Assembly: GCA_020633515.1 (NCBI GenBank)
Contig: JACKDM010000006.1
Location: forward strand, 60,278 to 124,277
DNA: 64,000 nucleotides
Direction: 5' to 3'
Source of the DNA: Myxococcales bacterium
Lineage (GTDB): Bacteria > Myxococcota > Bradymonadia > UBA7976 > UBA1532
Shown: positions 1,301-56,277 of the stretch, in pieces
Position numbering within the stretch: the stretch's first letter is position 1
Layout: every line of letters starts with the position of its first letter
Notes under the pieces: model-generated
The model's input: only the letters and a program-made list of their open reading frames with translations
Databases searched by the model: none
Told to the model about the DNA's origin: nothing
Position numbers and translations under genes: made by a program

Positions 1301-1878
1301 ACATCACCACCGGGTGCAAGGTTCAAACAGGGGTTGAGGTGCCCGCCCCGCGCGCCGCGCCGATCCCCGCCGCGGCCGCCGCGCGGGCAGACCGCGTCGG
1401 CGCCCCCGATCCCGCCGAAGTCGGCGTCGGCGGTCACGAAGTCCGGGGGCGCCGGGCGCGCCATCGGCCGGCTCGGGGTCACCGCGCGGATCGGCCGCCG
1501 ATCCATCCGGCCGCCGCCGCGTCGGCCGGCGCGTCCGGTAGCGTGACGACGCTTGCCTCCGACGGAGCCACCGCCGCCCATGGCATGCAGCCGATGCGCG
1601 TCGGCCCCACCGGCCCCGCCGGCGATGGCATCCGGCGGGGCCGCGTCGGTGGGATCGTCACGTCCGCCGCAGCGGAGCACGCGCCGGGCGCGTCGCGTCA
1701 CAGACCCCGCCGAGAGGCCGGTCCGACCGCGTCCGCGTCACCCTCCGCGCCGCGGACCGAGGCGCGCGAAAAAAGAGACGCGGTAATCACGAAGTAATGC
1801 CACCCGTCGCGGTAGTCGACTACTCTGACACTCCATGGGCAGGCTCGGGCGCCCACATCTGTGAGGGGGGGAAGTCTC
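1301..1878. other. Non-coding gap with a strong hairpin and a 12-bp palindrome
   Basis: No frame here gives a convincing protein; the open frames are Arg/Ala/Pro-rich low-complexity translations. Two structured elements are visible. At 1612-1642 a perfect 11-bp stem (GGCCCCGCCGG / CCGGCGGGGCC) encloses a 9-nt loop CGATGGCAT. At 1812-1823 there is a perfect palindrome GTAGTCGACTAC, 56 bp upstream of the + strand start at 1879. An A6 run occurs at about 1770-1775. Confidence 0.5.
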
Positions 1879-2403
1879 ATGCTGCCCGCGTTCGCCGTCG
1901 TCGATCGCATCTACACCGCCGTGTTGCGCAGCGTCCGCGGCGAGCGCCTCGGCCGCTTCTCGGTCACGCCCCGCGACGGGCTCGAGCTGCACACCTGGGA
2001 GTGGCACGGCGCCGAGTGGCCGGGTGAGGCGGTGTACATGGTCCCCGACGCGCAGGAGCGCCCGGCCGACATGCAGATCGGCGAGACCTACTCCGCCCGA
2101 CCCGACGTGCAGCTCGTCGCCGAGCCGCTCACCGCGCTGCGCCGCTTCGAGGCGGTCGAGCGGCTCTACGAGGTCGATCGCATCGACGGCCACTGCCACC
2201 CGCTCGGGCTGCTCGCCGTCACCGAGCGCGGCCTGACCTGGCTCGAGAGCGGCGCCGGCGGCTTCCACGCGCTCGCCCCGGCGCACATCCGCTTCACCCC
2301 GCGCGCCCGCCTCGACTGCGTCTCCGCGCTCGACCGGCTCCTCGTGCAGCACACCCTCCAGGCGAGCGGCCCGCTGCGGGTCGTCGGCCGCGCCTTCGGC
2401 TGA
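1879..2403 (+). CDS. Conserved-looking hypothetical cytosolic protein, 174 aa
   Basis: The product starts MLPAFAVVDRIYTAVLRSVR after a GAGGGGGGGA Shine-Dalgarno-like stretch. It has no signal peptide and no membrane segment. It is a balanced globular sequence with WEWHGAEW near residue 45 and an acidic stretch around residue 90. The reading frame has good GC3 behaviour and no low-complexity character, so I accept it as real. I do not recognise the family. It runs convergently with the FHA gene, with only 7 bp between the stops. The palindrome at 1812-1823 may belong to its promoter. Confidence 0.65.
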   Translation: MLPAFAVVDRIYTAVLRSVRGERLGRFSVTPRDGLELHTWEWHGAEWPGEAVYMVPDAQERPADMQIGETYSARPDVQLVAEPLTALRRFEAVERLYEVDRIDGHCHPLGLLAVTERGLTWLESGAGGFHALAPAHIRFTPRARLDCVSALDRLLVQHTLQASGPLRVVGRAFG

Positions 2404-2410
2404 CGATCGC

Positions 2411-3370
2411 TCAGCCCTGGATCACCTGGATCGCCGTCGCGCCGAGCCGCAGCTTCTGGTCGCCCCGGCGCCGCTCGACGATGTCGGCGTGATCCCCCAC
2501 CCCGGCGTCGGCGAGCTGCTGCCGCGCGCGGAACACCAGCAGGTTGAAGTAGGCGTACGGGTCGCGGTTGCGCAGCTTGAGCCGCTCGATCAGCTCGTTC
2601 GCCCCGCGCCAGCCCTGCTCCTCCTCGGGGCGCATCGCCTCCCGATCGGCGAGCCGCGCCTGCGCGAGATGCCACAGCAGCTCGTGGTGCTTGCGCGGCG
2701 GCAGCTCGATGAGGCGGCCCTGCTCCTCGAGGCTGACCCGCAGGTCGTCGGCGCCGGGGCCGGTCTCGAAGATGCAGGTCATGTTGGCGAGCCGACCCGC
2801 GCTCGCCGCGGTCTTGGCCGCGACCAGCGGCAGCCGGATCACCCACCGCCGCCCGCCCGCCTCGATCGTCTCGCCCGAGACCACCGGCGGCGCGTCCGCG
2901 GGCACCGCCGACAGATCACCCTCCGGCGCGCAGCGCACCCAGCCCCGCGCCGTCTCGACGATCGCGACGTCGGGCGCCGCCTCGTCGGGCAAGAGCAGCG
3001 ACCCCTCGCTCGCCACCCGCACCTCGCTCGAGGTGCGGCACAGCGCCCGCGCCGGCGGCGGCGAGACATCGACGACCGTCAGCGCCGGGCCGCCGAAGAC
3101 CAGCCGGGTCCCGACCGCGATCACCGCCGGCTCGGCCGCCGCGATCCGCAGCCCGTCGACGAAGGTCCCGTTGGCGCTCCCGAGGTCGCGCACCTCCCAG
3201 CGATCGATCCGCGCGTTCCAGGTCAGCGCCGCGTGGAGCTGCGAGACCCGGCGGTGCGCCTCGTCGGCTTCGTCGAACGAGAGCCCGTCGAGCCGCCCGC
3301 GGCCCACGAAGCAGTCGCTCGTCCATTCGAAGCGGCGCTTGTCGCCACCATCACTCCGCATCAATGCCAT
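2411..3370 (-). CDS. FHA-domain protein with C-terminal winged-helix-like domain
   Basis: About 319 residues. An N-terminal FHA phosphothreonine-binding domain (about residues 10-100) shows the signature GRG...S..HA.L......W.V.DLGSANGTFVDG...... The C-terminal 100 residues (ELPPRKHHELLWHLAQ ... VFRARQQLADAG ... VERRRGDQKLRLG) have the pattern of an OmpR/PhoB-type winged helix. The protein therefore probably reads a kinase-phosphorylated partner and acts on DNA or another protein. Its start overlaps the 3' end of the kinase gene by about 20 bp (ATG at 3370; ATG at 3361 is possible), so the two are translationally coupled. The kinase is the obvious source of its phospho-ligand; that link is inferred from position. 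Confidence 0.85.
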   Translation of the reverse strand: MALMRSDGGDKRRFEWTSDCFVGRGRLDGLSFDEADEAHRRVSQLHAALTWNARIDRWEVRDLGSANGTFVDGLRIAAAEPAVIAVGTRLVFGGPALTVVDVSPPPARALCRTSSEVRVASEGSLLLPDEAAPDVAIVETARGWVRCAPEGDLSAVPADAPPVVSGETIEAGGRRWVIRLPLVAAKTAASAGRLANMTCIFETGPGADDLRVSLEEQGRLIELPPRKHHELLWHLAQARLADREAMRPEEEQGWRGANELIERLKLRNRDPYAYFNLLVFRARQQLADAGVGDHADIVERRRGDQKLRLGATAIQVIQG

Positions 3371-6062
3371 CGTCACCCTCCATGGCGAGATCACACGCCA
3401 GCCGCAGCCCCACCGTCGTCAGGCGCTGCCCGGGCGGATTGCCGAAGCGCGCCGCGCAGTCGACGGTCGTCCCCGTCGAGCAGAACGCCCCGCCGCGCAC
3501 CATGCGGGTGTCGGCCGGGCCCTCGACGTCGATGTCGGCGATGACGACCCGGCTCCCATCGGGCGGGCCATCGAGCGCCCAGGGCTCGAGGCACCAGCTC
3601 CGCATGTTGCCGGCGAGCCATCGCACTCCATAGATGCTCACGTCGGCCGTCGCGGTCGCGACCGGCACCGGCCCGCGGATCTGCGGCAGCGAGTTGGCGA
3701 CGTGGGTCAGCACCGGCTCGAAGTGGTCGCCCCACGGCAGCCGCCGCCCGTCCACGCCACGCGCCGCCTTCTCGTACTCCCACTCGCTCATCAGCCGCCA
3801 CGGCCGCCCGGTCTCGGCCGCGTACCACGCCGCGTAGGCCCGCGCGCTCGCCCAGTCGATCCGCGACACCGGCTCGTCGAGGTGCCGGTCGCGCTCGGCG
3901 GGCACATGGCGCCCGTCGACGAAGTCGTACAGCGGCCGCAGCTTGTCGGGCGCGTGCGGCTCGGGCAGCGCCGGCCGCAGCGCCGCGAGCTCGTCGAGGC
4001 GCCCCGCCGCCGCGAGCGCGTCGAGGAAGCGGATGTACTCGCGATGGGTCACCGGATCGCGCTTGATCAAGAAGCCATCGACCCACAGCGACCGGGCCGC
4101 GACGCCGTCGATGGCATAACGCGAGCCACCGGCGCGGAACCAGCCCGCCGGGATGTAGACATCGTCGGGGCCGACCAGCGAAGCCTTCGGCAGCACGATC
4201 GGCCGCACCCGACCCTCGGGATCGGGCGTCGGCAGCTTCGCGCCGCGGGTGACGACCATCGGCACCTGCGCCGGCGCCCGCCCCGGCGCCGTCAACCGCG
4301 CCACGATCGGCCCCCACGGCTCGCGCGCCTCGGTGAGCGGCGTCACCCCCGCCGCGCGGAACGGGCCCGGACGCCACATGCGATCCTCGAGCGTCAGCCG
4401 CGCGACCTCGACCTGCGCCCCCGGCGGCGAGCTGAGCACGTCGAGCGCGCCGTGGCTCTCGTTGAGCGCCGCCAGCTCGGCGAGCACCTCACCCGGCTCG
4501 GCCGTCGTCGCCCGCGCGACCGTCGCCCGCAGTCGCTCACCATCTCCGCGCAGCGCCGCGCGCAGCCGCCGCGTCGCCGGCCGATCGCCCGCCCGCTCGG
4601 CCGTGAGGAACTGCTCGAGGTGGTAGCGCGCCAGCGCGGCGTGCGGCTCGGGCACCGTCGGATGCCAGTAGGAGATCGCGCGCACCTCCTCCTCCCAGTT
4701 GGCGAGGTACTCGTCGGCCTCCTCGGCCAGCTCGCGCGCCCGGTCCTCGTCGCGCCACCCCGGCGCCCGCACCTTCACCGGATCCCACGGCGAGAGCGTG
4801 TCGAGGAGCCCGTCGGCCCGTCGTTGGAGCGCCGCCGCCTCGGCGAGCCGCGCGTCGGCCGCCGCCCGCCACCGCCCCGCGCGCGCCACCGCCCGCCGCA
4901 CCAGCGCCGACTCGAGCGCGTCGGCGAACGCCGCCCCATCGGCCGGTCGCGCCGCCGGATCGGGCGAGAGCGCCGCCGTGCACGCCGCGCGACACGCCGA
5001 CCAGTCGGTGCCGTCCGCGGGCAGCGCCGGCGGCGGCAGCGTCGCCCCGGCGCGCCACGCGGCCTCGATCTGCTCGACCCGGCTGCTCTGGAATGGCATC
5101 CGCCCGGTCCACAGCGTGTACATCACCGCGCCGAGCGCATAGACATCGGCGCGCGCGTCGACCGCCTCGCCCGCCAGCCGCTCGGGCGCCATGAACGGCG
5201 CCGCCCCCGGCGGCCGCCCCGGCCGCTCCGCCGCGACCGTGTCGAGGCAGCGCGCGAGCTCCCAGTCGATCACCCGCGGGCTCCGGTCGCGCCGCTCGAA
5301 CATGATGTTGTCGGGCTTGAGGTCGAGGTGCACCACGCCGGCCGCGTGCGCCGCGCCCACCGCGCGCGCCGCGCCGACGAGGAGCCACATCGCGTCCTCG
5401 AACGACCACGGCGACCACGGCGGCGACGGCGCCGGCGCCGCCGTGACCGCCGAGCGCGCCCGCTCCCGCGCCGGTCCCATCTCCGCCGGCGGCGCGGTCG
5501 TCGCCGGGCGCTGCCGGTGCTCGTCGGGGTGCAGCGCCGCGATCACGTCGTCGAGCGTGCCCCCGTCGACCGCCTCCATCACCAGCCACGCATACTGCCC
5601 CTCGGTGAACCGATCGCTCGTCGGCAGGATGTGCGGGTGCCGCAGCCGCCGCTGCACCGCGTCCTGCTGCTGCTTGTCGGTCACCGGCACCGCGCGCGCC
5701 AGCGGCGTCGCCTTGGCCGCCATCGGCCGCCCGACGCGCAGATCGGTCACCGCGTAGACCTCGCCGAAGCCCCCGAGCGCGATCGTGCGCTCGACCCGAT
5801 AGCGCCCGTCGACGAGCTGGCCCGCCTCGATCCGCCACCCGCCCGGCTCCTCGGGCCCCCCGCCGGCCGTCGGCGCCGGGCGCCGCGCGACCGGATCGAC
5901 CGGAGGCTCGCCGGGGGACGGGGGCTGACTGTCTTCGGGGGGAGAGAGAGGCGCCGCCGGCCGCAGCGTCGGCTCGACGCCGCGCGCGGCCGGCGGCAGC
6001 GGCGCGGCGGCCTCGGAGCTCTCATCGGGAGAGGAGGAGATCACATCATCGTCATCGAACAT
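3351..6062 (-). CDS. Ser/Thr protein kinase fused to formylglycine-generating-enzyme (SUMF1)-like domain
   Basis: 903 residues. An acidic, Pro-rich N-terminus (about 1-80) is followed by a Hanks-type kinase domain: a glycine loop LGGFGEVYAV, Lys in AAKATP, catalytic HLDLKPDN, and MAPERLAG. The usual DFG is replaced by DWE (VIDWELA), and HRD is HLD, so activity may be altered although the catalytic Asp and metal-site Asp remain. A helical region (about 390-560) leads to a C-terminal FGE-sulfatase/SUMF1-like domain (VYIPAGWFRAGG ... RLMSEWEYEKAARG ... MVRGGAFCS ... GLRLA). Kinase-FGE fusions are a known domain arrangement in myxobacteria and planctomycetes. There is no transmembrane segment. 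It sits between an unknown 211-aa gene and the FHA gene in one operon. Confidence 0.92.
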   Translation of the reverse strand: MFDDDDVISSSPDESSEAAAPLPPAARGVEPTLRPAAPLSPPEDSQPPSPGEPPVDPVARRPAPTAGGGPEEPGGWRIEAGQLVDGRYRVERTIALGGFGEVYAVTDLRVGRPMAAKATPLARAVPVTDKQQQDAVQRRLRHPHILPTSDRFTEGQYAWLVMEAVDGGTLDDVIAALHPDEHRQRPATTAPPAEMGPARERARSAVTAAPAPSPPWSPWSFEDAMWLLVGAARAVGAAHAAGVVHLDLKPDNIMFERRDRSPRVIDWELARCLDTVAAERPGRPPGAAPFMAPERLAGEAVDARADVYALGAVMYTLWTGRMPFQSSRVEQIEAAWRAGATLPPPALPADGTDWSACRAACTAALSPDPAARPADGAAFADALESALVRRAVARAGRWRAAADARLAEAAALQRRADGLLDTLSPWDPVKVRAPGWRDEDRARELAEEADEYLANWEEEVRAISYWHPTVPEPHAALARYHLEQFLTAERAGDRPATRRLRAALRGDGERLRATVARATTAEPGEVLAELAALNESHGALDVLSSPPGAQVEVARLTLEDRMWRPGPFRAAGVTPLTEAREPWGPIVARLTAPGRAPAQVPMVVTRGAKLPTPDPEGRVRPIVLPKASLVGPDDVYIPAGWFRAGGSRYAIDGVAARSLWVDGFLIKRDPVTHREYIRFLDALAAAGRLDELAALRPALPEPHAPDKLRPLYDFVDGRHVPAERDRHLDEPVSRIDWASARAYAAWYAAETGRPWRLMSEWEYEKAARGVDGRRLPWGDHFEPVLTHVANSLPQIRGPVPVATATADVSIYGVRWLAGNMRSWCLEPWALDGPPDGSRVVIADIDVEGPADTRMVRGGAFCSTGTTVDCAARFGNPPGQRLTTVGLRLACDLAMEGDDGIDAE

Positions 6063-6116: not shown

Positions 6117-6752
6117 CTACTGCTCGATATCACCCCGCGCGAGCGCGGAGAAGGTGCCACCCGCGGTGTACCACCCCGAGCCGCTGCCCGCACCCCGGGA
6201 GAACGCCTCGGGCGAGCTCGGCGCGCCGCTCGACCACACCCGCTGCGCGCTCAGGTTGTACCAGTCGATCCGGCTGATGGCGTCATCGGCGCCGTTGAGG
6301 GTGACGAGCATCCGGTGCGCGGTCGTGCCGAGGCTGTCGCCGCCCGGCGCGCCGGTCGACGTCCACGACGGGTTCTGCGCCCCGCGGAAGATCAGCGCGT
6401 CGGTGTCGCCGATGAGATCGCGCGCCGCCGCGCCCGGGGTGCCGCTCAGATCGCTGCCGAACGCGAAGCGCACCTCGTAGTCGTTCGCGTCCTTGGCGAG
6501 ATCGAGGAGATCGTCCTCGAGGATGAAGATCGTCTCGGTCCACGCCGGGAAGCCGAGCGTCTTGCCGCCGACGCTGAGGGTGCGATCGTCGTCGCCCGCG
6601 AAGACGATCACGCAGCGCGCGACGGTCTCGGGGGTGTTGCTGACGACCTTGTGCAGCACGATGCCGCCGATGTCATCGTCGCCGCCCACCTGGAGGACGT
6701 CGTCGGGCTTGAGATCGGTGCTGGCCCGGGGATCGATGTTCATGTCGCTCAT
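6117..6752 (-). CDS. Hypothetical beta-rich protein, 211 aa, first gene of kinase-FHA operon
   Basis: I do not recognise the family. The start MSDMNIDPRASTDLKPDD at 6752 follows a GAGGG ribosome-binding site; the in-frame ATG at 6794 has no such site. There is no signal peptide. The first half is rich in Asp (GGDDDIGG, FAGDDDRTLSVGG) and alternates hydrophobic residues as beta strands do; DDLLDLAKDANDYEVRFAFGSDL follows. The C-terminal third is Gly/Ser-rich. It lies 54 bp upstream of the kinase in the same orientation, so it may be the kinase's regulator or substrate; that is inference from position only. Confidence 0.7.
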   Translation of the reverse strand: MSDMNIDPRASTDLKPDDVLQVGGDDDIGGIVLHKVVSNTPETVARCVIVFAGDDDRTLSVGGKTLGFPAWTETIFILEDDLLDLAKDANDYEVRFAFGSDLSGTPGAAARDLIGDTDALIFRGAQNPSWTSTGAPGGDSLGTTAHRMLVTLNGADDAISRIDWYNLSAQRVWSSGAPSSPEAFSRGAGSGSGWYTAGGTFSALARGDIEQ

Positions 6753-6898: not shown

Positions 6899-7648
6899 TC
6901 ACCGATCGGGCCGCAGCCCCATCATGTAGCCCCCCGCGACCTCGACGTTCTGCCCGGTCACGTAGCCGGCGCGCGTGCTCGTCAGCCAGCACACCGCCTC
7001 GCAGATGTCTCCGACCGTGCCCGCCCGCCCGAGCGGCACCGCCCCGTCGAAGCCATCGGGCAGATCGACGCTGTTGTCGATGTGACCCGGCGAGACCATG
7101 TTGACCCGGATCCCGCGCGGCCCGAGCTCCTCGGCGAAGCTCCGGGTCAGGATCAACAGCCCCGCCTTGGTGCAGGCATACGCCGCCGCCTTGCCGCCCG
7201 CGCCGTTGTGTTCGAGCCCGGTGTAGCCGATGTTGACGATCGACCCCCCCCGCGCCCCGAACAACGGCGTCACCCGCCGGATCAGATCGAACGGCCCGAG
7301 CAGGTTGGCCCGCCACATCGCGTCGAAGTCATCGCGCGCGAAGTCGGCGAGCGGCCCGGTGTGATAGACACCCACGTTGTTGACGAGCACGTCGAGCCGG
7401 CCGTCGGTCTCTTCGACCCGCGCCACCATCGCCGCGATGTCATCGGCCGATGCCATGTCACCGCGCACCACCCGCGCGACCCCGCCCCGCGCGCGGATGC
7501 CATCGGCCACCGCCTCGGCCTCGGCGGCCGAGTGCAGGCAATGCACCCAGGTGGCATATCCCTCGGCGGCGAGCCGCTCCACGAGCGCGCGCCCGAGCCG
7601 CTTCGCCGAGCCGGTCACGAACGCCACCGGCCGATCGCTCGCCTTCAC
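6899..7648 (-). CDS. Short-chain dehydrogenase/reductase, probably a pteridine reductase-like enzyme
   Basis: 249 residues, GTG start overlapping the folB stop (GTGA). Rossmann motif TGSAKRLGRA near residue 12, NNVG near residue 88, and the catalytic YACTK; the C-terminus GQNVEVAGGYMMG is typical of classical SDRs. The usual serine before YxxxK sits in an atypical stretch (NIGYTGLEHNGAGGK), as in pteridine/dihydromonapterin reductases. Coupling to folB supports reduction of a pterin such as dihydropterin to tetrahydropterin (FolM/PTR-like), but a different carbonyl substrate cannot be excluded. Confidence 0.85.
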   Translation of the reverse strand: MKASDRPVAFVTGSAKRLGRALVERLAAEGYATWVHCLHSAAEAEAVADGIRARGGVARVVRGDMASADDIAAMVARVEETDGRLDVLVNNVGVYHTGPLADFARDDFDAMWRANLLGPFDLIRRVTPLFGARGGSIVNIGYTGLEHNGAGGKAAAYACTKAGLLILTRSFAEELGPRGIRVNMVSPGHIDNSVDLPDGFDGAVPLGRAGTVGDICEAVCWLTSTRAGYVTGQNVEVAGGYMMGLRPDR

Positions 7649-8010: not shown

Positions 8011-8423
8011 GTCGTCCCCTCTTCGATCAGCCGCTCCACGAGCAGCCGCGTCGGTTGGTTGAGCGGCATCGCGAGCGCCTCGTCGAGCGTCACCCAGCGA
8101 TGGTCCTCGGCCTCGTCGTTGAGCACGACCCTCGCCTCACCGCGCAGCCGCCCGGTGAAGTTGACGAGGATGAAGTGCGCCGGCTGGTGGAACTCGGGGT
8201 GGTCGATGGCATCCTGCACGAGCACGAAGCGCACGTCGCCGACGTCGAGCCCGGTCTCTTCGCGCACCTCGCGCACGAAGGCATCGGCCATCGCCTCGCC
8301 GCGCTCGATCTTGCCACCCGGCGTGCCCCAGAGGCCGCGCCACTTGTGGGTGCGGATGAGCAGGCAGCGCCCGGTGCCATCGAAGACGAGCCCGCCCGAG
8401 GTCGCGATGGGTCGATCGCTCAT
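8007..8423 (-). CDS. NUDIX hydrolase
   Basis: 138 residues. The complete NUDIX box is visible at about residues 38-60: GGKIERGEAMADAFVREV followed by REETGL, matching GX5EX7REUXEEXGU. These enzymes cleave nucleoside diphosphates linked to another moiety. The 4-nt overlap with folB suggests it could be the missing dihydroneopterin-triphosphate pyrophosphohydrolase of folate synthesis, but a general mutT-like or dinucleotide role is also possible. The start MSDRPIATSGG at 8423 leaves 8 bp to the upstream stop; an ATG at 8450 would overlap it. Confidence 0.88.
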   Translation of the reverse strand: MSDRPIATSGGLVFDGTGRCLLIRTHKWRGLWGTPGGKIERGEAMADAFVREVREETGLDVGDVRFVLVQDAIDHPEFHQPAHFILVNFTGRLRGEARVVLNDEAEDHRWVTLDEALAMPLNQPTRLLVERLIEEGTT

Positions 8424-9424: not shown

Positions 9425-10200
9425 CGAGCGCGGGACGATGGATGCCAGCGCCGCAGCGCGCGGTCGCCGAGCCCGCTGACGAGGCCGAACAACACGAAGC
9501 CGACGAGCGCGCTGAGCAGGATGGCGGCGAAGACCAGATCGGTTCGCGCCTCGCGGATCGAGGTCAGGATCACGATCCCGATCGGCGCGTCGGCCCCGGC
9601 GAAGCCGCTGACGAACTCGCCGACCACCGCGCCGATGACCGCGAGCCCGGCCGCGATCCGCAGCCCGGTGACGATGCCGGGCAGCGCCGACCACATCTCG
9701 AGCTTGTGCCAGGTGGCGAAGCGCCCGGCGCCGTGGATCGCAAACAGCTCGCGCAGCTCGGGATCGGTCGAGCGCAGCCCGTCGACGGTGTTGGCGATCA
9801 CCGGGAAGACCGAGACGATCACCGCCGAGGCGACGACGGCGTCGAGGCCGTAGCCGAACCAGATCGTCAGCAGCGGCGCGATCGCGACGACGGGCACCAT
9901 CTGCAAGAGGTTGGCGAGCGGGTAGACCCCGCGGCGCAGCACCTCGATCGAGGCGAGCAGGGTGCCGGCCGCGACCCCGAGCACCGCCGCGATGCCGAAG
10001 CCGAGGAAGCTCGCCGCCGCCGTGCGCGCGGTCGCGGCGAGCAGCATCGCGCGGCGCTCGACGAAGCCTTCGAAGACGGCGAGCGGCGAGGGGCAGAGGT
10101 ACTCGGGGACCTCGGCGAGCGTCACCGCCGCCTGCCAGAGCGCGAGCGCGAGCAGCACCGTCACCAGCGGCGGCCCCGCGGTCGTCATCAGCCGCCGCAT
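9421..10200 (-). CDS. ABC transporter permease (SsuC/TauC/ThiX type)
   Basis: 259 residues with about six membrane spans. The EAA loop appears as WHKLEMWSALPGIVTGLRIA, the coupling helix that docks on the ATPase. The N-terminus MRRLMTTAGPPLVTVLLALA matches the family. An in-frame GTG at 10227 overlaps the ATPase stop as GTGA and could be the true start, adding nine residues. It forms one importer with the binding protein (downstream) and ATPase (upstream). Confidence 0.9.
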   Translation of the reverse strand: MRRLMTTAGPPLVTVLLALALWQAAVTLAEVPEYLCPSPLAVFEGFVERRAMLLAATARTAAASFLGFGIAAVLGVAAGTLLASIEVLRRGVYPLANLLQMVPVVAIAPLLTIWFGYGLDAVVASAVIVSVFPVIANTVDGLRSTDPELRELFAIHGAGRFATWHKLEMWSALPGIVTGLRIAAGLAVIGAVVGEFVSGFAGADAPIGIVILTSIREARTDLVFAAILLSALVGFVLFGLVSGLGDRALRRWHPSSRAR

Positions 10201-17196: not shown

Positions 17197-17706
17197 ATGA
17201 CCGCGCCCGAGTCCTACGACGACCTCGTCGACCTGCTCGCGCTCTACGAGGCGCCCAACACCGACGGCATGCCCGACGTGCCCGACCTCCTGCGCGCGGT
17301 CACCGCCGCCGGCGCCTGGGACGACGGCCGGCAATGGGCGGCCGCCATCGGACAAGCCATCACCATCTCATGCGCCTACAGCGACGTCGCCGACGACGTC
17401 TACGGCCAGCGTGTCGCCTTCTGGGACGACGAAGGCCCCCTCCGCGATGACTGGTTCGACGTCCCCTACACCCTGCTCCCCCCCGTCTTCGAAGCGCTCC
17501 TCGACGCCGCCCATGCCAGGCCCCCGCAATGGGGCGCGCTCCTCCTCGCCGCGCTCGGACGCATCGAGGCCTGTGGCATCGATGACTTCGACCGCGTCGA
17601 CGCCGCCATCGCCGCCGCCGCCGGCCTGCCATGCGAAGGCGACGCCCGCGCCAGGCGCGCCGCGCTCGCCGCCGCCCACCCCGAGCTGCTGCGCGACGCC
17701 GGCTGA
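17197..17706 (+). CDS. Hypothetical acidic protein, 169 aa
   Basis: Starts with ATG after a strong GGAGGAG site. The sequence is acidic, helical and lacks a signal peptide. Motifs such as [20 protein letters not shown] and [19 protein letters not shown] suggest a small helical-repeat or immunity-like scaffold, but I do not recognise the family. It stands alone between the symporter and the esterase. Confidence 0.7.
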
Positions 17707-30910: not shown

Positions 30911-30919
30911 TCGATGGCA

Positions 30920-44299: not shown

Positions 44300-45534
44300 C
44301 GCGCGGGGTGACCCTCGAAGAAAGGCAGCGTCGGCGGGAAGACGCCGAGCGGCGCGTCGGGCCAGGCGGCGGCGTCGAAGTCGCCGGCGGGGAGCGGCCA
44401 GGTGATGCCGCTGCCGGGCGCGAAGCCGTTGTCGGGCACGTCGCGGCGGCCGCGCATGGCCTTGATGAAGAAGCGCCAGCCGTCGCGCTCGGCGGGCTGG
44501 CAGGTGTGGAAGTCGCCGTAGTCGAACCGGAGCATCGTGTGGGTGGGCGCGCGCACGGCCTTCAGGGTGCCATCGGCGATGGCATCGGCGAGGATGCGTT
44601 GCCAGACGCCGCGGCCGTCGGCGCCGATGGGGGTGACGGGGAGCGCGATGTCACCGACGAGGAAGCCGGTGGCGCCGGCGGGGCCGAGACAGCAGCCGAT
44701 CTGCTCGATGTGGCGGCCGGGGTTGATGAGATCGGGGGTGCCATCGCTGCGCTTGTCGATGCGGCTGGTGCCGTCGATGTGCCAGCCGGCGAGGCATGAG
44801 TACCAGCCGGGGTCGAACTCGTTGATCTTGCCGTTGACGATGACGTCGGCGTCGGGGGTCTGCCAGTGGGCGGGGAGCGCGCGCACGAAGGCGCGGGCGA
44901 TGGGTCCGCCGTTCTCGGCGAGCCACGCGGGGTGGCAGGCGCGCGGCACCGGCTCGCGGGCGATGTCTTCGGGGCCGAAGGCTTCGAGGTGGCCGAGGAC
45001 CTCGTAGCCGGTGGAGAAGCGGAGCGGGCGCTCGGCGGCCCAGTCGGGGAGGGTGTCGAGGCGGGGCACGTCGGGCTCGGGCGCGAAGCGGCGCGCGGAG
45101 CGGCGGGGGCGGTCGAGGAGCTCGGCGGGGTCGGCGCGGCGGGCGAGCGCCATGACGACCGCGCCGGGCTCGGCGTGGGCGGGCCATGCGATCCCGCGGG
45201 CGGCGGCGGCGGCCTTGACGGCGACCGGCGCGCCATCGGCGGGGAGCGGCGCGCCGTCGACCTCAATCACCGGGCGCTCGGCCTGCGCGGTGATGAGCAC
45301 GTCGTCGGCGGGGCCGGTCGCACGCCAGCGGCGGTCGTGGAGGGGGCGCGCGACCGGCGAGGCGCAGTATTCGCCGGGCGCGAGGCGGAGGCGCTGCACG
45401 TCGATGGCGACGTGGTCCCAGCGCGCGCGGGCGGCGGCGAGGAGCTTGCGGGCGAGCGGGCCGCCGTGGCGGTCGATGGTCTCGGCCGAGGCGGCGTACC
45501 ACATCGGCTCGGGCGTTTCGTCGTGTCCGGTCAT
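44296..45534 (-). CDS. HxD...H...R oxygenase-like protein, first gene of the siderophore ABC operon
   Basis: 412 residues from ATG 45534, which has GGGGGAGA just upstream. No signal peptide. The C-terminal half has WHIDG (His252, Asp254) and, about 90 residues on, DFHTCQPAERDGWRFFIKAM (His343, Arg353), the spacing of the Fe(II)/2-oxoglutarate double-stranded-beta-helix oxygenases. An N-terminal part (HVAIDVQRLRLAPGEYC) could be another beta domain. I do not know a characterised homologue. Its place upstream of a ferric-chelate importer suggests modification or breakdown of the chelator in the cytoplasm, or iron release. Confidence 0.65.
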   Translation of the reverse strand: MTGHDETPEPMWYAASAETIDRHGGPLARKLLAAARARWDHVAIDVQRLRLAPGEYCASPVARPLHDRRWRATGPADDVLITAQAERPVIEVDGAPLPADGAPVAVKAAAAARGIAWPAHAEPGAVVMALARRADPAELLDRPRRSARRFAPEPDVPRLDTLPDWAAERPLRFSTGYEVLGHLEAFGPEDIAREPVPRACHPAWLAENGGPIARAFVRALPAHWQTPDADVIVNGKINEFDPGWYSCLAGWHIDGTSRIDKRSDGTPDLINPGRHIEQIGCCLGPAGATGFLVGDIALPVTPIGADGRGVWQRILADAIADGTLKAVRAPTHTMLRFDYGDFHTCQPAERDGWRFFIKAMRGRRDVPDNGFAPGSGITWPLPAGDFDAAAWPDAPLGVFPPTLPFFEGHPAR

Positions 45535-46898: not shown

Positions 46899-47214
46899 GT
46901 CGAGCCACCGAGGGCGCGGGATCGCTGGTCGAGGGCGAGCGCGCCCACAGGCTGCGACGCAGCCGTACCTGAGGTACGGCGAGGAGCGGCCGCGGACGTA
47001 AGCCGCCCTCGGCCGGCGAGACCGCGTCCGAATGGCCGACACGTTTCCTGACGATGCCGGAGGGCGGGCGGCGACGCCGGCGGGGGCGGCTGCGGCGTGA
47101 GGCGCCCGCGGGCGGTCTTGATGACTTCTTGATGCCGGGCGCCCCCGACTGAACACCGGGGATCGCGCCGGTCGTCTAGGCTCACGACGTTCCCGCAGTC
47201 GCAAAGGAGCGTCG
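46899..47214. other. Intergenic region before kdpF with a perfect inverted repeat
   Basis: No gene seen. At 46962-46980 a perfect 9-bp-arm inverted repeat GCCGTACCTGAGGTACGGC (one-base centre) follows the MFS gene; it lacks a T tract, so it may be an operator or mobile repeat rather than a terminator. The kdp control region occupies the right end. TAGGCT (47177-47182) is a possible -10 hexamer. Confidence 0.5.
47118..47134 (+). promoter_or_regulatory. Candidate KdpE direct-repeat box upstream of kdpF
   Basis: TTGATGACTTCTTGATG holds two TTGATG half-sites spaced exactly 11 bp apart, the head-to-tail spacing used by OmpR-family regulators such as KdpE. It lies about 80-97 bp before kdpF. A matching TTGA-11-TTGATG occurs after kdpE (55062-55078). 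Confidence 0.5.
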
Positions 47215-47313: not shown

Positions 47314-49049
47314 ATGAGTGATGTCATCTTGACGTTCGGCCTCGTGCTCGCGCTCGCGCTCCCGCTCGGGCTGTGGATGCACCGGGTCTTCTCGCCCGAG
47401 AGGGGCGCGCTCGACCGGGTCTTCGGTCCGATCGAGCGGGGGGTGTTCCGCGCGCTGGGGGTCGATCCCGGGGCGCCGATGGGGTGGCGGCGGTACACGC
47501 GGGCGCTGCTCGTGACCCACGCGGGGCTCGCGGTGTTTGCGTTCGCGCTGCTGATGGCACAGGGCGTGTTGCCGCTCAACCCCGATGGGATCCCGGGCAT
47601 GAGCTGGGATCTCGCGCTGCATACGGTCGCGTCGTTCGTCACCAACACCAACCAGCAGCACTACAGCGGGCAGGCGCAGCTCTCGTATCTGGCGCACCTG
47701 GGCGCGATCGTGACGTTGCAGGTGGTGACGCCGGCGGTGGGGCTCGCGGCGCTGGTGGCGATCCTGCGGGGGATCGCGCCGGGGGCGGGGGCGCGGCGGC
47801 TGGACGCGCGGGGGGATGTGGATCTCGGCAACTACCACGCCGACGTGGTGCGGGGCGTGGTGCGGGTCTTCCTGCCGCTGGCGCTCGTGGGGGCGGTGGT
47901 GCTGACGAGTCAGGGGGTGCCGGCGACGTTCGAGGGCGCGGTGACGGTGCAGCCGGTGGACGCGACGGCGGGCATGGAGGCGCAGGTGATCCCGGTGGGG
48001 CCGGTGGCGCCGATGGTGGCGATCAAGCAGCTCGGGACGAACGGCGGCGGGTGGTACGGGCCCAACAGCGCGGTGCCGCTGGAGAACCCGACGCCGGTCG
48101 CCAACCTCGTCGAGATGGTGTCGATCCTGCTGGTGCCGGTGGCGTGCGTGGTGCTGTGCGGGCTGATGACGGAGCGGCGCTTCGGGCGGATGACCTTCGC
48201 GGTGATGGGGGTGATGTGCGCGGCGCTGGTCGCGGGCGCATTGCTCGCCGAGCAGGGGTCGAACGCGGCGTTCGATGGCATCGTGGCTGCGGGGCCGAAC
48301 TGGGAGGGCAAGGAGGTGCGGCATGGCATCGAGGCTTCGGCGCTGTGGGCGTCGCTGACGACGCAGACGTCGAATGGCAGCGTGAATGCCATGCATGACA
48401 GCCTCACGCCGCTCGGTGGCATCGCGCCGCTGGTGGGGATGTGGATCAACGCGAGCTTCGGCGGGGTGGGGGTGGGCGCGATCAACTTCATCTTGTTCGT
48501 GCTGCTGACGGCTTTTCTCTCGGGGCTGATGGTGGGGCGCACGCCGGAGGTGTTCCGGCGCAAGCTCGGGGCGCGCGAGGTGCGGTGGGTGGCGGTCGCG
48601 GTGCTGGTGCCGCCGGCGCTGGTGCTGGTGCCGTCGGCGATCACGCTGGCGGTGGATGGGCTGGCGGGGGTGTCGAACCCGGGGCCGCACGGGCTGACGC
48701 AGGTGGTCTACGAGTTCAGCTCGGCGGCGGCGAACAATGGCTCGGGGTTCGAGGGGCTCGCCGATGGCACGGTGTGGTGGAACGTGTCGTGCGCGGTGGT
48801 GCTGGTGCTCGCGCGCTTCGTGCCGATCATCGCGCCGCTGGCGGTCGCGGGGCTGCTCGCGGCGAAGCCGGCGGCGCCGGCGGGCGCGGGGAGCCTCTCG
48901 GTGTCGTCGCCGGTGTTCGGGGTGACGACGCTGGCGGTGATCGTGATCGTGCAGCTGCTGGTGTTCTTGCCGGTGCTGGCGCTGGGGCCGGTCGCCGAGC
49001 ACTGGGTGAGCGCGCCCGCGGTGGCGGCTTCGGCGGCGGAGGTGCCGTG

Positions 49050-51649: not shown

Positions 51650-54335
51650 CGCGCGGCCCGATCCCGATCGGCTCCTCGCCGCGCTCGATCGCGCGCGGCC
51701 GGGGTCGCGCGGGCGGCTCAAGGTGTTCCTCGGCGCGGCGGCGGGGGTGGGCAAGACGGTCGCGATGCTGCGGGCGGCGCGGCTCGCGGTCGCCGAGGGG
51801 CGGGACGTGGTCGTGGGCGTGGTCGAGACGCACGGGCGCGCGGAGACGGCCGCCGAGATCGGGGCGCTCGAGGTGCTGCCGCGGCGGGTCTCGACGCGGG
51901 CCGGGGCGCTGCCCGATCTCGACCTCGACGCGGTGCTCGCGCGGCGGCCGGAGGTGGTGGTCGTCGACGAGCTCGCGCACAGCGTCGCGCCGGGCGGGCG
52001 GCACGCGAAGCGATGGCAGGAGGTCAGCGAGCTCGTCGACGCCGGGGTCGAGGTGTGGACGGCGATGAACATCCAGCACCTCGAGAGCCACAACGACGTC
52101 GTCGAGCGGCTGACCGGGGTGCGGGTGGGCGAGACGGTGCCCGATCACGTGCTCGACGGCGCCGACGAGATCGAGGTGATCGATCTGACGCCGGAGGATC
52201 TGCGGGCGCGGCTCGAGGCGGGGCGGGTGTATCGGCCGGAGCAGGCGCGGCGAGCGCTCGATGGCTTCTTCCGGCGGGGCAACCTGCTCGCGCTGCGGCA
52301 GCTCGCGCTGCGGCACGCGGCGAGCCGGGTGGGCGAGCAGGTCGACGACTACCGCGACCGCGAGCTGATGGGGCGGGTGTGGGCCGCCGCCGAGCGGCTG
52401 CTCGTCGCGGTGGGGCCGAGCCCGCTCTCGGCGCGGCTGGTGCGGGTGGCGTCGCGCATGGCGCGCGCGCTGGATGTGCCGTGGCACGCGGTGACCGTCG
52501 AGCCGCTGCACGGCGGGCGGCCGGAGGCCCAAGCGCGGGCGCTCGGCCACCTGCGCCTCGCCGAACAGCTCGGCGCCGAGACGGCGAGCCTCACCGCGGC
52601 GGGGGTCGCCGAGGCGCTCGTGGGCTACGCGCGGCAGATCAACGCGACCCTGATCGTGCTCGGCGCGCCGGCGCGGCGGAGCTGGCGGGAGCGGCTGCGC
52701 GAGTCGCCGCTCGACGGGGTGATCCGGCTCGCGACCGACGTGGAGGTGCACGTCGTGCCGACCGACGCCGGCGCCGCGGCGGGCGCGGGGGCGCCGGTCG
52801 CTTCGCGGGCGCGGCGGCTGCGGGTCCGGCTCGCCGATCTCGGGCTCGCGGCCGCGCCGGTCGCGCTCGCGAGCGGGCTCGCGGGCTGGCTCGCGCCGTG
52901 GCTCTCCGAGTCGGACGTCATCATGGTCTACCTCGCGGCGGTGATCGTCGCGTCGTTCCGGCTGAGCCGCGTCGCGAGCCTGCTCTCGGCGGTGCTCGCG
53001 GTGCTCGCGTTCAACTTCTTCTTCACCGCGCCGCGCTTCACGCTGTTCGTCAACGACAGCGCCTATTGGCTGACCTTCCTCATCGTGGGCGGCGTGGGGC
53101 TGCTCGTGGCGTCGCTCGCGGCGCGGGCGCGCGAGCAGGCGCAGGTGGTGGCGGCGCGGGAGGGCGAGGCGCGGGAGCTGTACCGGCTCGCGCGTCGGCT
53201 GGGGGTGGCGGAGACCCCGGAGGCGGTCGCCGAGGTGGCGGCCGACCAGCTCCACCGGCTGCTCGGCGCCGACGTGGTGGTGCTGCTGCCGGCGGCGGGC
53301 GGGCTGGCGCGGGTCGCGGCGCGCGGGGTGGTGCCCGACGGCGACGTGGACCGGGCGTGCGCGGAGTGGGTGGCGCAGCGCGGCGAGCCGGCGGGGCCGG
53401 GGACGGCGACGCTGGTCGGCGCCGAGCTCTGCTACCTGCCGCTGCTGCGCGGCGAGCGGGTCGTGGGCGTGATCGGGGTGCGGCCGCGTGATGGCGTCGG
53501 TCAGCCCGAGCAGCGGCACCTGATCGCGACGGTGGCGGCGCTGGTGAGCGAGCTGCTCGATCGGCTGCGGGTGGAGGCCGACGCGACCGCGGCGCGGGTC
53601 TCGGCGGAGACGGAGCGGGTGCGCAGCACGCTGCTGTCGAGCGTCTCGCACGATCTGCGCACGCCGCTGGCGGCGATCACGGGCGCGGCGACGACCTTGC
53701 TCGATCGGAGCGACCACCTCGACGCGGCGACGCGCGCGGAGCTGCTGACGCGGGTCGCCGAGGAGGCGCGGCGGCTCGCGCGGCTGCTCGATGGCGTGCT
53801 GCACATGACCCGGCTCGACAGCGGGAGCATCACCCCGGCGCTGGAGTGGGAGATCCCGGCCGAGATCGCGGGCACGGCGGCGGCGCGGGTGGCGCCGCAC
53901 GCGGCCGGGCGCGCGCTGCGGATCGACGCGCCGGCGGCGCCCTTCCTCGCCCGGCTCGACGCGGTGCTCGTCGAGCAGCTCCTCGTCAACTACCTCGACA
54001 ACGCGCTGGTGCACGGCGAGGGGCCGATCGATCTGACGGTGCGCGAGGCGGGGGGCGAGGTGGTCTTCGAGGTCGCCGATCGGGGGCCGGGGCTGCCGGC
54101 GGGGGATCCGGCGCGGCTGTTCCAGAAGTTCGTGCGCGGCGACAGCCGGCGGCGGCCGGGCGCGGGGCTGGGTCTGGCGATCTGCAAGGCGATCGCGGGC
54201 GTGCACGGGGGCGCGGTGTGGGCGGCGCCGCGGGTCGGCGGGGGCGCGGTCTTCGGGGCGCGCTTCCCGCGGGGCGACGGGGGGGAGGCGCCGCGCGTCG
54301 AGAGCATCCTGGGTGATCCGGTGGAGGTGTCATGA
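51642..54335 (+). CDS. kdpD: Osmosensitive potassium-channel sensor histidine kinase KdpD
   Basis: 897 residues from GTG 51642, overlapping kdpC by 8 nt. N-terminal KdpD domain with Walker A FLGAAAGVGKT and VVVDELAHS, USP domain (about 240-360), four membrane helices (about 395-490), GAF-like domain, HisKA H-box SSVSHDLRTPLAAITGAA near residue 670, and HATPase (NYLDNALVHGE, DRGPGLP, GAGLGLAICK). Senses low potassium / turgor and phosphorylates KdpE. Confidence 0.97.
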   Translation: MSDARPDPDRLLAALDRARPGSRGRLKVFLGAAAGVGKTVAMLRAARLAVAEGRDVVVGVVETHGRAETAAEIGALEVLPRRVSTRAGALPDLDLDAVLARRPEVVVVDELAHSVAPGGRHAKRWQEVSELVDAGVEVWTAMNIQHLESHNDVVERLTGVRVGETVPDHVLDGADEIEVIDLTPEDLRARLEAGRVYRPEQARRALDGFFRRGNLLALRQLALRHAASRVGEQVDDYRDRELMGRVWAAAERLLVAVGPSPLSARLVRVASRMARALDVPWHAVTVEPLHGGRPEAQARALGHLRLAEQLGAETASLTAAGVAEALVGYARQINATLIVLGAPARRSWRERLRESPLDGVIRLATDVEVHVVPTDAGAAAGAGAPVASRARRLRVRLADLGLAAAPVALASGLAGWLAPWLSESDVIMVYLAAVIVASFRLSRVASLLSAVLAVLAFNFFFTAPRFTLFVNDSAYWLTFLIVGGVGLLVASLAARAREQAQVVAAREGEARELYRLARRLGVAETPEAVAEVAADQLHRLLGADVVVLLPAAGGLARVAARGVVPDGDVDRACAEWVAQRGEPAGPGTATLVGAELCYLPLLRGERVVGVIGVRPRDGVGQPEQRHLIATVAALVSELLDRLRVEADATAARVSAETERVRSTLLSSVSHDLRTPLAAITGAATTLLDRSDHLDAATRAELLTRVAEEARRLARLLDGVLHMTRLDSGSITPALEWEIPAEIAGTAAARVAPHAAGRALRIDAPAAPFLARLDAVLVEQLLVNYLDNALVHGEGPIDLTVREAGGEVVFEVADRGPGLPAGDPARLFQKFVRGDSRRRPGAGLGLAICKAIAGVHGGAVWAAPRVGGGAVFGARFPRGDGGEAPRVESILGDPVEVS

Positions 54336-55078: not shown

Positions 55079-55123
55079 GCCGGGCGGGTAGGATGGAGCC
55101 TCACGGTCGTGGGGGTCGCGGCG

Positions 55124-55207
55124 ATGGGTGAGACTGCCTGGGTGCTGTTTGCGGTGGGATGGGTGGTGTGCCTCGCGCTGGTGCTGATCGGCGTCCGGTC
55201 TCGCTGA
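55124..55207 (+). CDS. 27-residue single-helix membrane peptide next to kdpE
   Basis: Reads MGETAWVLFAVGWVVCLALV then LIGVRSR and a TGA. A short polar start, one 19-20-residue hydrophobic helix and a basic end resemble KdpF and other small bacterial membrane peptides. The ribosome-binding site is weak (GGGGGTCGCGGCG). Position between kdpE and a convergent gene, with a kdp-like repeat upstream, suggests a potassium-responsive small protein. No homologue is claimed. Confidence 0.5.
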   Translation: MGETAWVLFAVGWVVCLALVLIGVRSR

Positions 55208-55227
55208 GCGCGGACGGCGGGTGATGG

Positions 55228-56277
55228 CTACTTGCGGCGCTTGAGGTAGACGGCCTGGTTCATCGCGTTGATGTTCTTCTGGATGACATGGGGGATGTTC
55301 TGGCGGCCGCTGTTGCTCTCGCCGTACTTGCTCTTGAGCTTCGCCTTGACGGCGTCGCTGACGGCGTCGGCGAGGTCGAGGGTGAAGTCGGCGTTCTGCT
55401 GGATGATGTCGGTGATGATGGGATCTTCGCCCTTGATCTGGAGCGCGGCCTGGCCCTGGATGGGCTTGCCGCCGGCGTTGTATCCCATCATGACGATGGC
55501 ATGGTCGTCCTTGGAGCCGCCGCGGATGTGGTCGATCTTGGTGGAGACGTAGAGCCCGGCGCCGCCGAAGCAGGGGGAGTCGTCCATCTTCCAGGTGCGA
55601 TAGTTGGAGTCGTTGCTCTCGTACTCCATCGCCTGGTCGTCTTTGTCGTTGAAGTGATGGCCGATGGCATCTTCGAAGCGGTCGTTGCTGAACGCGACGT
55701 AGACGTCGGGGGCGACGAAGGCGCCGGTCGAGACCGAGTAGACGAGCTTGTTGAGGTTGTGGTTGGCGACGGCGATGAAGTTGAGGCGGCCGCCGTCATC
55801 GCTGAGCTTGACGATGAGCTTGGAGAAGTAGTTGCACGCGTTGCCGATGGCATGCACGACCTTGCCGGTGATCTCGGCGACGATGGGATCGATCTCGACG
55901 AGCGCGCCTTCGGAGAGGACGTCGATGATGCCATCGACGGCGGCTTCGGCGGCGTAGGCGGTGAGGTCGATGACCCAGTCGGGGGCGGTGTAGCCGTCGT
56001 TGCCGGCCTCCCAGCTCATCTTGATCCGGGTGAGGGTGCCATCGGCTGCGTAGTAGACCTTGAGGGTGACGTGGTCGTCGGTGGCGCCGCCGCGGATGTG
56101 GTCCTGCTCGACCTTGAGGCGGATCCCGCCGTCGTCGGTGTTGGCGGCGGTGGGCTTGTAGGTGCGGTATTCGGCGTCTTCGCTGTCGAACTTCGCGGCG
56201 TCGCCGTCCTTGTCGTTCCAGCCGTGGGGGTAGAGGCTGGCGAGGACGTCGGTGTAGACCTTGATCGGGGCGCTCAT
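55228..56277 (-). CDS. Cytosolic protein with an internal duplicated domain, 349 aa
   Basis: Two copies of the same 65-residue unit: first WNDKDGDAAKFDSEDAEYRTYK ... DHIRGGATDDHVTLKVYY near residues 20-80, second FNDKDDQAMEYESNDSNYRTWK ... DHIRGGSKDDHAIVMMGY near 215-285. Between them is a region with LVEIDPIVAEITGKVVHAIG. No signal peptide or membrane segment. The composition (Asp, Asn, Lys, Tyr) differs from neighbours. Family unknown; the repeated Asp/Asn-rich NDKDGD and DHIRGG motifs could bind a divalent metal. Start ATG 56277 is preceded by GGAG. Confidence 0.78.
   Translation of the reverse strand: MSAPIKVYTDVLASLYPHGWNDKDGDAAKFDSEDAEYRTYKPTAANTDDGGIRLKVEQDHIRGGATDDHVTLKVYYAADGTLTRIKMSWEAGNDGYTAPDWVIDLTAYAAEAAVDGIIDVLSEGALVEIDPIVAEITGKVVHAIGNACNYFSKLIVKLSDDGGRLNFIAVANHNLNKLVYSVSTGAFVAPDVYVAFSNDRFEDAIGHHFNDKDDQAMEYESNDSNYRTWKMDDSPCFGGAGLYVSTKIDHIRGGSKDDHAIVMMGYNAGGKPIQGQAALQIKGEDPIITDIIQQNADFTLDLADAVSDAVKAKLKSKYGESNSGRQNIPHVIQKNINAMNQAVYLKRRK

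Follow-up and report, generated by a model that had tools for sequence, protein, structure and literature searches.

A degenerate palindrome, AWGNCWT, is over-represented in a GC-rich stretch of a Myxococcales genome and in two relatives, and appears to be favoured at least partly as DNA

The 64,000-nucleotide stretch of DNA analysed here (the window) comprises positions 60,278 to 124,277 of contig JACKDM010000006.1 of a Myxococcales bacterium (assembly GCA_020633515.1), and it is rich in a short palindromic word. It contains 58 genes and is 90.5 % coding according to gene calls made with our own codon-usage script rather than a published gene finder, and Pfam annotation of 20 of the 58 genes gave nothing relevant to the motif. 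A first-pass annotation had reported 16 exact copies of a 9-mer, a count that we reproduced: eight read GATGGCATC and eight GATGCCATC, which are reverse complements of each other, and in the orientation of GGC all 16 read CGATGGCATC. Fifteen of the reported start coordinates are exact, but the copy placed at 55673 lies at 55663. The stated expectation from composition of fewer than one copy holds (0.27 for both spellings together), and the proposed third-order Markov check, in the window only, gives 1.24; at fourth order the expectation is 3.74. Most copies were rightly placed in genes (14 of 16, all 14 in codon phase 0), where they encode Asp-Gly-Ile as GAT GGC ATC eight times and Asp-Ala-Ile as GAT GCC ATC six times. 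The two copies described as non-coding are also so here, that at 1624 being intergenic and that at 30913 lying in the gap between converging genes with a 2-base overlap with one stop codon. As for the one-base variants said to add to the series, GGTGCCATC/GATGGCACC are in excess (14 versus 2.2 at third order) but GATGGCATG hardly is (2 versus 0.67).

The 9-mer is not the unit. Expected numbers in genes were obtained by shuffling synonymous codons inside each gene, which preserves the protein, codon usage and regional composition. Among 1635 hexamers, the top excess over these shuffles is that of ATGGCA/TGCCAT (56 versus 9.9 expected), followed by ATGCCA/TGGCAT (52 versus 12.3); the remaining top hexamers are 1.6-2.2 fold in excess, save AAGCCA/TGGCTT at 4.6 fold, which is of the same family. 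Substitution scans lead to RWGNCWY, with A or T flanking GNC on both sides, an outer purine and pyrimidine, a free centre and a requirement for the inner G and C. The one-base spacer is required, with RWGCWY at 1.11, RWGNNCWY at 0.84, RWGNNNCWY at 1.02 and RWGNNNNCWY at 1.38 times the expectation, and the flank-swapped YWGNCWR stands at 0.80 times. Genes of the window hold 221 RWGNCWY (79.3 expected), 82 AWGNCWT (20.9) and 43 GAWGNCWTC (10.8), and the totals for the whole window are 247, 89 and 47. Within this AWGNCWT/RWGNCWY family, which is most clearly seen as GAWGNCWTC, the 9-mer is the commonest face, with T/A ends and a G/C centre. Since the 247 RWGNCWY sites have 243 distinct contexts, a dispersed repeat is not their source, and no helical phasing of sites at 10-11 bp was found. 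The reported absence of copies from 8.2-24.3 kb and from 56-64 kb is true of the exact 9-mer, but the first gap holds 56 RWGNCWY and seven GAWGNCWTC sites; the chance of finding it empty with 16 uniformly placed copies is ∼0.01 for a gap chosen post hoc. The region from 56 to 64 kb is low in every form (10 RWGNCWY and one GAWGNCWTC). The reversed pattern CTACGGTAG was dropped as a null, TAG/CTA words being in our judgement rare in such genomes. A tandem 9-bp repeat, GGTGGCATC, with seven TGGCAT units at 9-bp spacing, occupies 36659-36718 inside gene 35 and translates as Asp-Ala-Thr repeats on the - strand.

In genes, the third base chosen for a codon is coupled to the base that opens the second codon downstream. 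Asp is encoded by GAT in 29 % of cases across the window, but in 8 of 9 cases in Asp-GGC-ATC and 6 of 8 in Asp-GCC-ATC; elsewhere GAT use is 0/12 in Asp-Gly-Arg, 1/26 in Asp-Ala-Ala and 0/14 in Asp-Ala-Val, with intermediate values in Asp-Gly-Val (8/15) and Asp-Gly-Leu (6/16). Before GNC, GAT accounts for 73 of 102 Asp codons if the next-but-one codon starts with A or T and for 24 of 194 if it starts with G or C (p = 7.5e-25). The adjacent codon alone is insufficient, because GAT splits in the same manner within GGC (32/42 versus 12/50) and within GCC (17/27 versus 2/55). T-ending His and Tyr codons before GNC are coupled too (38/58 versus 5/101, p = 1e-16), as are GGW for Gly (33/123 versus 8/256) and GAA for Glu (34/58 versus 34/123). 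Pooling Asp, His and Tyr gives 111/160 versus 29/295 (odds ratio 20.8, p = 1.4e-39), or 104/152 versus 24/284 when genes 30 and 35, the most doubtful, are left out. No coupling is seen in the window for the other four-fold families pooled (8/525 versus 22/1647) or for Lys/Gln (4/37 versus 7/77), and GAT is scarce ahead of codons starting with A or T (12/258). Residues whose codons start with A or T make up 25.6 % after Asp, His, Tyr, Glu or Gly followed by Gly, Ala, Val or Asp and 21.2 % after others in the window (odds ratio 1.28, p = 1.3e-4), versus odds ratios of 1.04-1.11 in five other genomes; the protein sequence may thus be slightly bent by motif pressure. Chance or composition is a scarcely credible source of the pattern. 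A fifth-order Markov model does give 11.4 of the 16 exact copies, but such a model already holds most of the 9-mer (it includes ATGGCA and GATGGC). The coupling, with p near 1e-39, recurs in two relatives. For the coupling, chance and composition are already refuted.

These relatives, G001 (JAUHYW01) and G002 (JAUHXC01), are the nearest genomes found, with matches of 86 and 85 % to the leucine dehydrogenase and 86 and 86 % to CoaD; in 16 genomes of the order, the next-best CoaD match is 73 %, and KdpA, as a marker of nearer relatives, matched in 2 of 57 genomes at 46-47 %. Tests at genome scale were made in the relatives' sequences. AWGNCWT exceeds the shuffles 3.7-fold in the window and 2.2-fold in both G001 and G002, compared with 0.97-fold in G010, 1.05 in G007, 1.25 in G004, 1.3 in G014, 0.96 in G015 and 1.27 in G019. 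The odds ratio of the Asp coupling is 17.8 in the window, 3.5 in G001 (p = 2e-31) and 1.8 in G002 (p = 5e-5); in the other six genomes it is 0.8-1.8 and not significant in any, some of the samples being small. The comparison by shuffles and coupling covers these nine sequence sets, and G018, G008, G016, G003, G006 and G005 entered by raw density, save locus L047 of G005. The core common to the relatives is AWGNCWT (948 versus 429 in G001 and G002 together, both strands counted), whose centre base is neutral there (2.20-fold with A/T, 2.21-fold with C/G), as is the next flank.

Densities of AWGNCWT are 1391/Mb in the window, 446/Mb in G001 and 799/Mb in G002, and those of GAWGNCWTC 734, 220 and 307/Mb, the relatives being sampled. 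Maxima read by eye over 377 genomes are ∼65/Mb for GATGGCATC (G002) and ∼313/Mb for GAWGNCWTC (G263), versus 250 and 734/Mb in the window. Single 64-kb stretches, however, reach 17 exact copies and 47 GAWGNCWTC sites in G001 and 16 and 41 in G002; the window may therefore be simply a rich stretch of a genome like these two, and density by itself is a weak test. GAWCNGWTC was rejected as a phylum-wide null because its ratio to GAWGNCWTC varies widely where coupling was not measured (for example, 647 GAWGNCWTC to 61 GAWCNGWTC in G377). Some 1-4 kb stretches of G001 contigs C6, C21 and C28 carry 4-8 copies of CGATGGCATC; they are possibly repetitive genes, and they inflate the whole-genome count of G001. 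An 800-kb sample of G001 also has different preferences of its own: GAT before CTG, ACG, CCG and CAG (0.41-0.50 versus 0.15 overall), and GTCGAGCA/TGCTCGAC, which is strongly in excess (426 versus 133).

Because any table of both strands is bound to be symmetric, the symmetry of the motif was judged solely from sense-strand counts resolved by codon phase. One reading frame accounts for 149 of the 221 in-gene RWGNCWY sites. The wobble base of this main frame is the left W, which calls for a purine before it: RWGNCWY is found at 3.6, RWGNCWR at 2.7 and YWGNCWY at 0.75 times the expectation. In the mirror frame it is the right W, which calls for a pyrimidine after it: the values are 4.6 for RWGNCWY, 2.2 for YWGNCWY and 0.68 for RWGNCWR. 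Here rare codons are forced: after RWG in the window, NCA/NCT make up 25/296 before a pyrimidine versus 7/415 before a purine (p = 2.6e-5), and after other codons 64/1958 and 28/2923; the extra effect of RWG over other codons before a pyrimidine has p = 1.4e-4. Sixteen motif-rich stretches of the relatives, hand-picked at a coding AWGNCWT excess of at least 2.4-fold (C38 of G002 at 60 kb and C20 of G001 at 160 kb qualified but were left out), give 112/1484 after RWG before a pyrimidine, 62/1993 after RWG before a purine (p = 3.8e-9 between them), 518/9440 after other codons before a pyrimidine (p = 2.2e-3 versus RWG) and 348/13872 after other codons before a purine. AWGNCWT is enriched in all three frames of these stretches (21 versus 5.1, 266 versus 85.7 and 11 versus 1.1). 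In the poor contig C5 of G001, the share after RWG before a pyrimidine (12/811) is below that after other codons (132/4528).

Intergenic DNA of the window, G001 and G002 together (122 kb, both strands counted) holds 186 AWGNCWT versus 66-75 expected and 54 GAWGNCWTC versus 14-19, with the controls TWGNCWA (22 versus 18-22) and GAWCNGWTC (20 versus 18-23) close to expectation; the enrichment of AWGNCWT in the two relatives is 2.3-3.2 times. The outgroups G004, G010 and G007 (46 kb) hold 40 AWGNCWT versus 28-34 and 2 GAWGNCWTC versus 4. The comparison of coding with non-coding DNA proposed in the first-pass annotation thus has two sides, an intergenic excess of AWGNCWT in the relatives but a patchy coding excess. 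Given the mirror rule and the intergenic excess, DNA itself is at least part of what the pressure acts on, and not translation alone.

The main alternative offered at first pass, a GAT-GGC/GAT-GCC codon-pair bias, fails as a full account, because GAT follows the first base of the codon after next, a mirror form exists in the second frame and AWGNCWT is in excess between the genes of the relatives. Known codon-pair and context biases (excerpts of PMC2585594 and PMC3202573) are alike in that synonymous choice depends on neighbouring bases, and differ in that the coupling here spans to the codon after next and has a mirror form in another frame. A translational preference for pairs or triplets in which T-ending Asp, His and Tyr codons precede certain codons is a wider form of this explanation, and one that we regard as improbable. 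The codon phase of the 14 genic 9-mers and the predominance of one frame among in-gene sites speak for it, as does the coupling through CNC middle codons described below, an effect on the sense strand. Asp, His and Tyr (with Asn) also have a common wobble-modification pathway, that of queuosine. Such a preference would, however, have to span two codons, and it leaves aside the coupling of Glu and Gly, the mirror rule on rare NCW codons and the intergenic AWGNCWT. Nor is the Asp/His/Tyr coupling seen in other GC-rich fragments (17 actinobacterial loci; 7 Xanthomonadaceae loci; L047, titled Kofleriaceae, with L053, titled Klebsiella and 73 % GC), where the odds ratios are below 1 (0.60, p = 0.01; 0.59, p = 0.02; 0.22, p = 0.19).

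The motif is patchy. At equal GC, AWGNCWT ranges in G001 from 0-3 per 10 kb over 160 kb of contig C5 to 8-21 at 120-170 kb of C17, and in the window it runs at 9-22 per 10 kb before dropping to 0 in the last 4 kb. G002 is patchy also, its richest stretch being somewhat lower in GC (0.68-0.70 over most of the first 40 kb of C38). The exact 9-mer varies from 0 to 17 per 64-kb stretch in G001 and from 0 to 16 in G002. The rsmD-coaD end of the window is poor; its counterpart in G002 has 2 and 6 AWGNCWT per 10 kb, and the genes there have 7 versus 2.6 over shuffles. Horizontal acquisition, or an unusual stretch with a composition of its own, would make the word a local curiosity. This is a quite unlikely explanation, for which the regional density in G001 and G002 as well, the somewhat lower GC of the richest G002 stretch and the extreme GC skew of the window can be cited. 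Against it, genes with close orthologues in G001 and G002 sit in the rich part of the window (gene 16 at 87 % over 285 of 423 residues and gene 23 at 85-86 %), GC in G001 is ∼0.73 in rich and poor stretches alike, and the shuffles were done within genes.

The GC skew is a feature in its own right. At third codon positions it is very strong over 11000-61000 of the window and independent of gene strand: calculated on the + strand, most genes have values of -0.34 to -0.74 between 11 and 22 kb and of +0.2 to +0.84 between 31 and 61 kb, a few small genes are near 0, and the switch comes near 30 kb, where two genes converge. At both ends of the window it is near 0, and in 20-kb stretches of G001 and G002 it stays within 0.26. 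In genes 50-53 (56574-60990), T-ending Asp, His and Tyr codons number 10/10, 0/28, 2/60 and 39/58, which matches the strand skew. The DnaA-box consensus TTWTNCACA does not occur in the window.

Sites turn over fast, and most are not conserved between species. Gene 16 has 12 sites and gene 26 has 17; alignment with G002 covers 9 and 8 of these, and G002 carries 1 and 0 in the aligned parts. In 13 gene pairs with G002, 2 of the 34 window sites that fall in aligned sequence recur there. Of 20 conserved Asp, His and Tyr residues in a GNC plus A/T context, 16 have a T wobble in the window against C in G002, 3 have C in both, 1 has C against T and none has T in both, compared with 36 of 97 other T wobbles common to both. 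The bases gained look mainly like transitions, with 30 GGT versus 3 GGA in the coupling context (102 versus 35 for all Gly) and 19 NCA versus 6 NCT after RWG before a pyrimidine (73 versus 51 for all NCN). Fast turnover and gain by transition both fit a functionless mutation or repair bias that writes the palindrome, such that once one end of GNC is A or T the other end drifts to A or T, for example through a methylation-guided mismatch-repair ratchet, for which the ratchet model of HIPs (highly iterated palindromes; excerpts of Elhai 2015, PMC4390886) is a precedent. This we rank second, as an unlikely yet serious contender. It has to face stretches of G001 that at equal GC show no such bias in genes, which a genome-wide mutation bias would need codon selection to explain, and three methyltransferase families (PF00145, PF01555 and PF02086) in which no clade-specific member was found.

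Table 1. GAWGNCWTC sites in the window (47), with coding context of the exact 9-mers and of sites at gene edges or between genes.
Sequence	Position	Context
GATGGCATC	1624..1632	intergenic
GAAGCCATC	4071..4079	
GAAGCCTTC	4180..4188	
GATGTCATC	6669..6677	
GAAGCCATC	7049..7057	
GAAGTCATC	7325..7333	
GATGTCATC	7436..7444	
GATGCCATC	7496..7504	Asp-Gly-Ile, - strand
GATGGCATC	8205..8213	Asp-Ala-Ile, - strand
GAAGGCATC	8277..8285	
GAAGCCTTC	10063..10071	
GAAGGCATC	15686..15694	
GATGACTTC	17581..17589	
GATGTCATC	17879..17887	
GATGTCTTC	18956..18964	
GAAGACATC	20034..20042	
GATGGCATC	24340..24348	Asp-Ala-Ile, - strand
GAAGTCATC	24427..24435	
GATGCCATC	26393..26401	Asp-Ala-Ile, + strand
GATGGCATC	26573..26581	Asp-Gly-Ile, + strand
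GATGGCTTC	26897..26905	
GATGCCATC	28382..28390	Asp-Ala-Ile, + strand
GATGACATC	29503..29511	first base is final base of a gene
GATGGCATC	30913..30921	between converging genes, 2-base overlap with stop codon
GAAGACTTC	31754..31762	
GATGCCATC	31820..31828	Asp-Gly-Ile, - strand
GAAGTCTTC	33757..33765	
GATGGCTTC	36408..36416	
GATGCCTTC	37525..37533	
GATGCCATC	38902..38910	Asp-Gly-Ile, - strand
GATGGCTTC	39082..39090	
GATGTCATC	40466..40474	
GATGCCATC	41183..41191	Asp-Gly-Ile, - strand
GATGCCATC	42258..42266	Asp-Gly-Ile, - strand
GATGACTTC	43319..43327	
GATGCCTTC	43502..43510	
GATGGCTTC	43826..43834	
GATGGCATC	44578..44586	Asp-Ala-Ile, - strand
GATGTCTTC	44962..44970	
GAAGGCTTC	44977..44985	
GATGACTTC	47120..47128	intergenic
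GATGTCATC	47320..47328	
GATGGCATC	48274..48282	Asp-Gly-Ile, + strand
GATGGCTTC	52260..52268	
GATGGCATC	55663..55671	Asp-Ala-Ile, - strand
GATGCCATC	55927..55935	Asp-Gly-Ile, - strand
GATGGCTTC	58173..58181	sole GAWGNCWTC site in motif-poor 56-64 kb

Positions 41250-43283 of the window encode a protein of 677 residues in which two FecCD stretches form a fused permease pair of the iron-siderophore type; its gene adjoins an ABC ATPase gene and is near a TonB-dependent receptor gene.

Several known systems resemble the motif. Chromosome-domain sites such as the matS sites of MatP are short palindromes that are regional and few per genome; AWGNCWT shares palindromy and regionality with matS and differs in occurring hundreds to over a thousand times per Mb. 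DNA uptake sequences are not palindromic, in which AWGNCWT differs from them. Those of the Pasteurellaceae and Neisseriaceae are alike in being a short word in great excess in the genome (excerpts of PMC1939737).

The closest likeness is to the HIPs of cyanobacteria, which the first-pass annotation had also invoked. In excerpts of Elhai 2015 (PMC4390886), HIPs are overrepresented palindromes, mostly GC-rich and at around 500-2500 per Mb, that are generally paired with a methyltransferase and for which a methylation-guided mismatch-repair ratchet is proposed; words that replace HIP1 (GCGATCGC) are at least 75 % GC. The likeness stands as regards a palindrome in large excess, a density in the same range for both AWGNCWT and GAWGNCWTC, and words that are specific to a lineage. 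It does not extend to GATGGCATC itself as the word. AWGNCWT is degenerate with a free centre, is patchy, has G/C at 2 of 6 specified positions (4 of 8 in GAWGNCWTC), below the 75 % or more of the HIP words, and has no methyltransferase or binding protein tied to it, and the host is no cyanobacterium. The methyltransferase point covers three families in the relatives. HIPs are, in our reading of the class, spread inside and outside genes, and AWGNCWT has its intergenic excess in the relatives with a patchy coding excess. The motif works like a HIP; we do not file it as one because it is not GC-rich, its host is not cyanobacterial and no matching methyltransferase was found among the three families. 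No literature on GATGNCATC was found. Searches for overrepresented palindromes in Myxococcota (by title), for HIP-like words outside cyanobacteria (by title or start of abstract, among the matches listed) and for HIP1 or overrepresented palindromic motifs in bacterial genomes (among the matches listed) returned nothing related; excerpts of PMC5217627 and PMC3497702 contain nothing on the motif, and those of PMC2843746 do not mention palindromes, HIP, TGGCAT or ATGGCA.

We tentatively propose, as the first-ranked of the explanations though short of an even chance, that a small GC-rich clade, by inference of Myxococcota, favours AWGNCWT in part at least at the DNA level, through recognition by a protein. 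An abundant dimeric protein, either nucleoid-associated or DNA-modifying, would read two AWG half-sites one base pair apart, and sites would be continually gained by single A/T-for-G/C changes beside GNC where codon selection allows. Such a dimer would fit a site that is symmetric, has a free centre and shows graded preferences, with A favoured over G and T over A. The recognition step is a guess, and the writing bias considered above is nearly as likely.

A number of results weigh against this proposal. CNC middle codons couple also (Asp 39/62 versus 39/144, odds ratio 4.6), as in weaker form does the mirror GNG (Asp 19/50 versus 34/207, odds ratio 3.1; His/Tyr not significant), and part of the effect may therefore be at codon level. 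NCA/NCT codons generally prefer a following pyrimidine, even without RWG (3.3 % versus 1.0 % in the window), so that the mirror rule depends on the smaller increment that RWG adds. Between genes of the clade, RWGNCWY (1.26-1.35 times) does no better than the flank-swapped YWGNCWR (1.20-1.33 times), and AWGNCWT and GAWGNCWTC alone stand out; the window's own intergenic DNA (6 kb, too short to decide) has 40 RWGNCWY versus 26-31 (1.3-1.5 times) and 10 AWGNCWT versus 2.1-2.5. A phase-blind second-order Markov model of the whole window puts RWGNCWY at just 1.25 times, although the values for G001 and G004 are lower still (0.54 and 0.44 times), in tables listing 25 of 80 loci. The pressure is patchy, with 41 RWGNCWY versus 42.9 in the main frame of C5 of G001; the poor stretches are hence neutral, and the motif is not avoided there. 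Coding richness and intergenic density are not significantly correlated (Spearman 0.21, p = 0.13, 53 stretches of 20 kb), which leaves unsupported the idea that rich regions are domains with their intergenic DNA included; intergenic AWGNCWT per kb is 1.03, 0.74 and 0.75 in rich, middle and poor stretches, with an AWCNGWT control at 0.51, 0.42 and 0.49. Finally, PF00145 (the C5-methyltransferase family) has 0 matches in G001, and PF01555 and PF02086 are not clade-specific, having matches in the motif-less G004, G007 and G010.

What causes short palindromes such as HIP1 to build up in genomes is an open question on which this motif bears. Such a word is now seen outside cyanobacteria, where it is degenerate and varies between strong and weak stretches of the same genome; its sites turn over between related species, so that gain and loss can be measured. 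A synonymous codon can be chosen according to a base two codons away, seemingly not for translational reasons alone. Possibly, at odds of roughly one reading in three, this is a HIP-like system outside cyanobacteria, in which a clade of Myxococcota with a dimeric chromosome-binding or DNA-modifying protein would have had a degenerate 7-bp palindrome written thousands of times into its genome, in regional blocks, at a cost in preferred codons and, slightly, in protein sequence.

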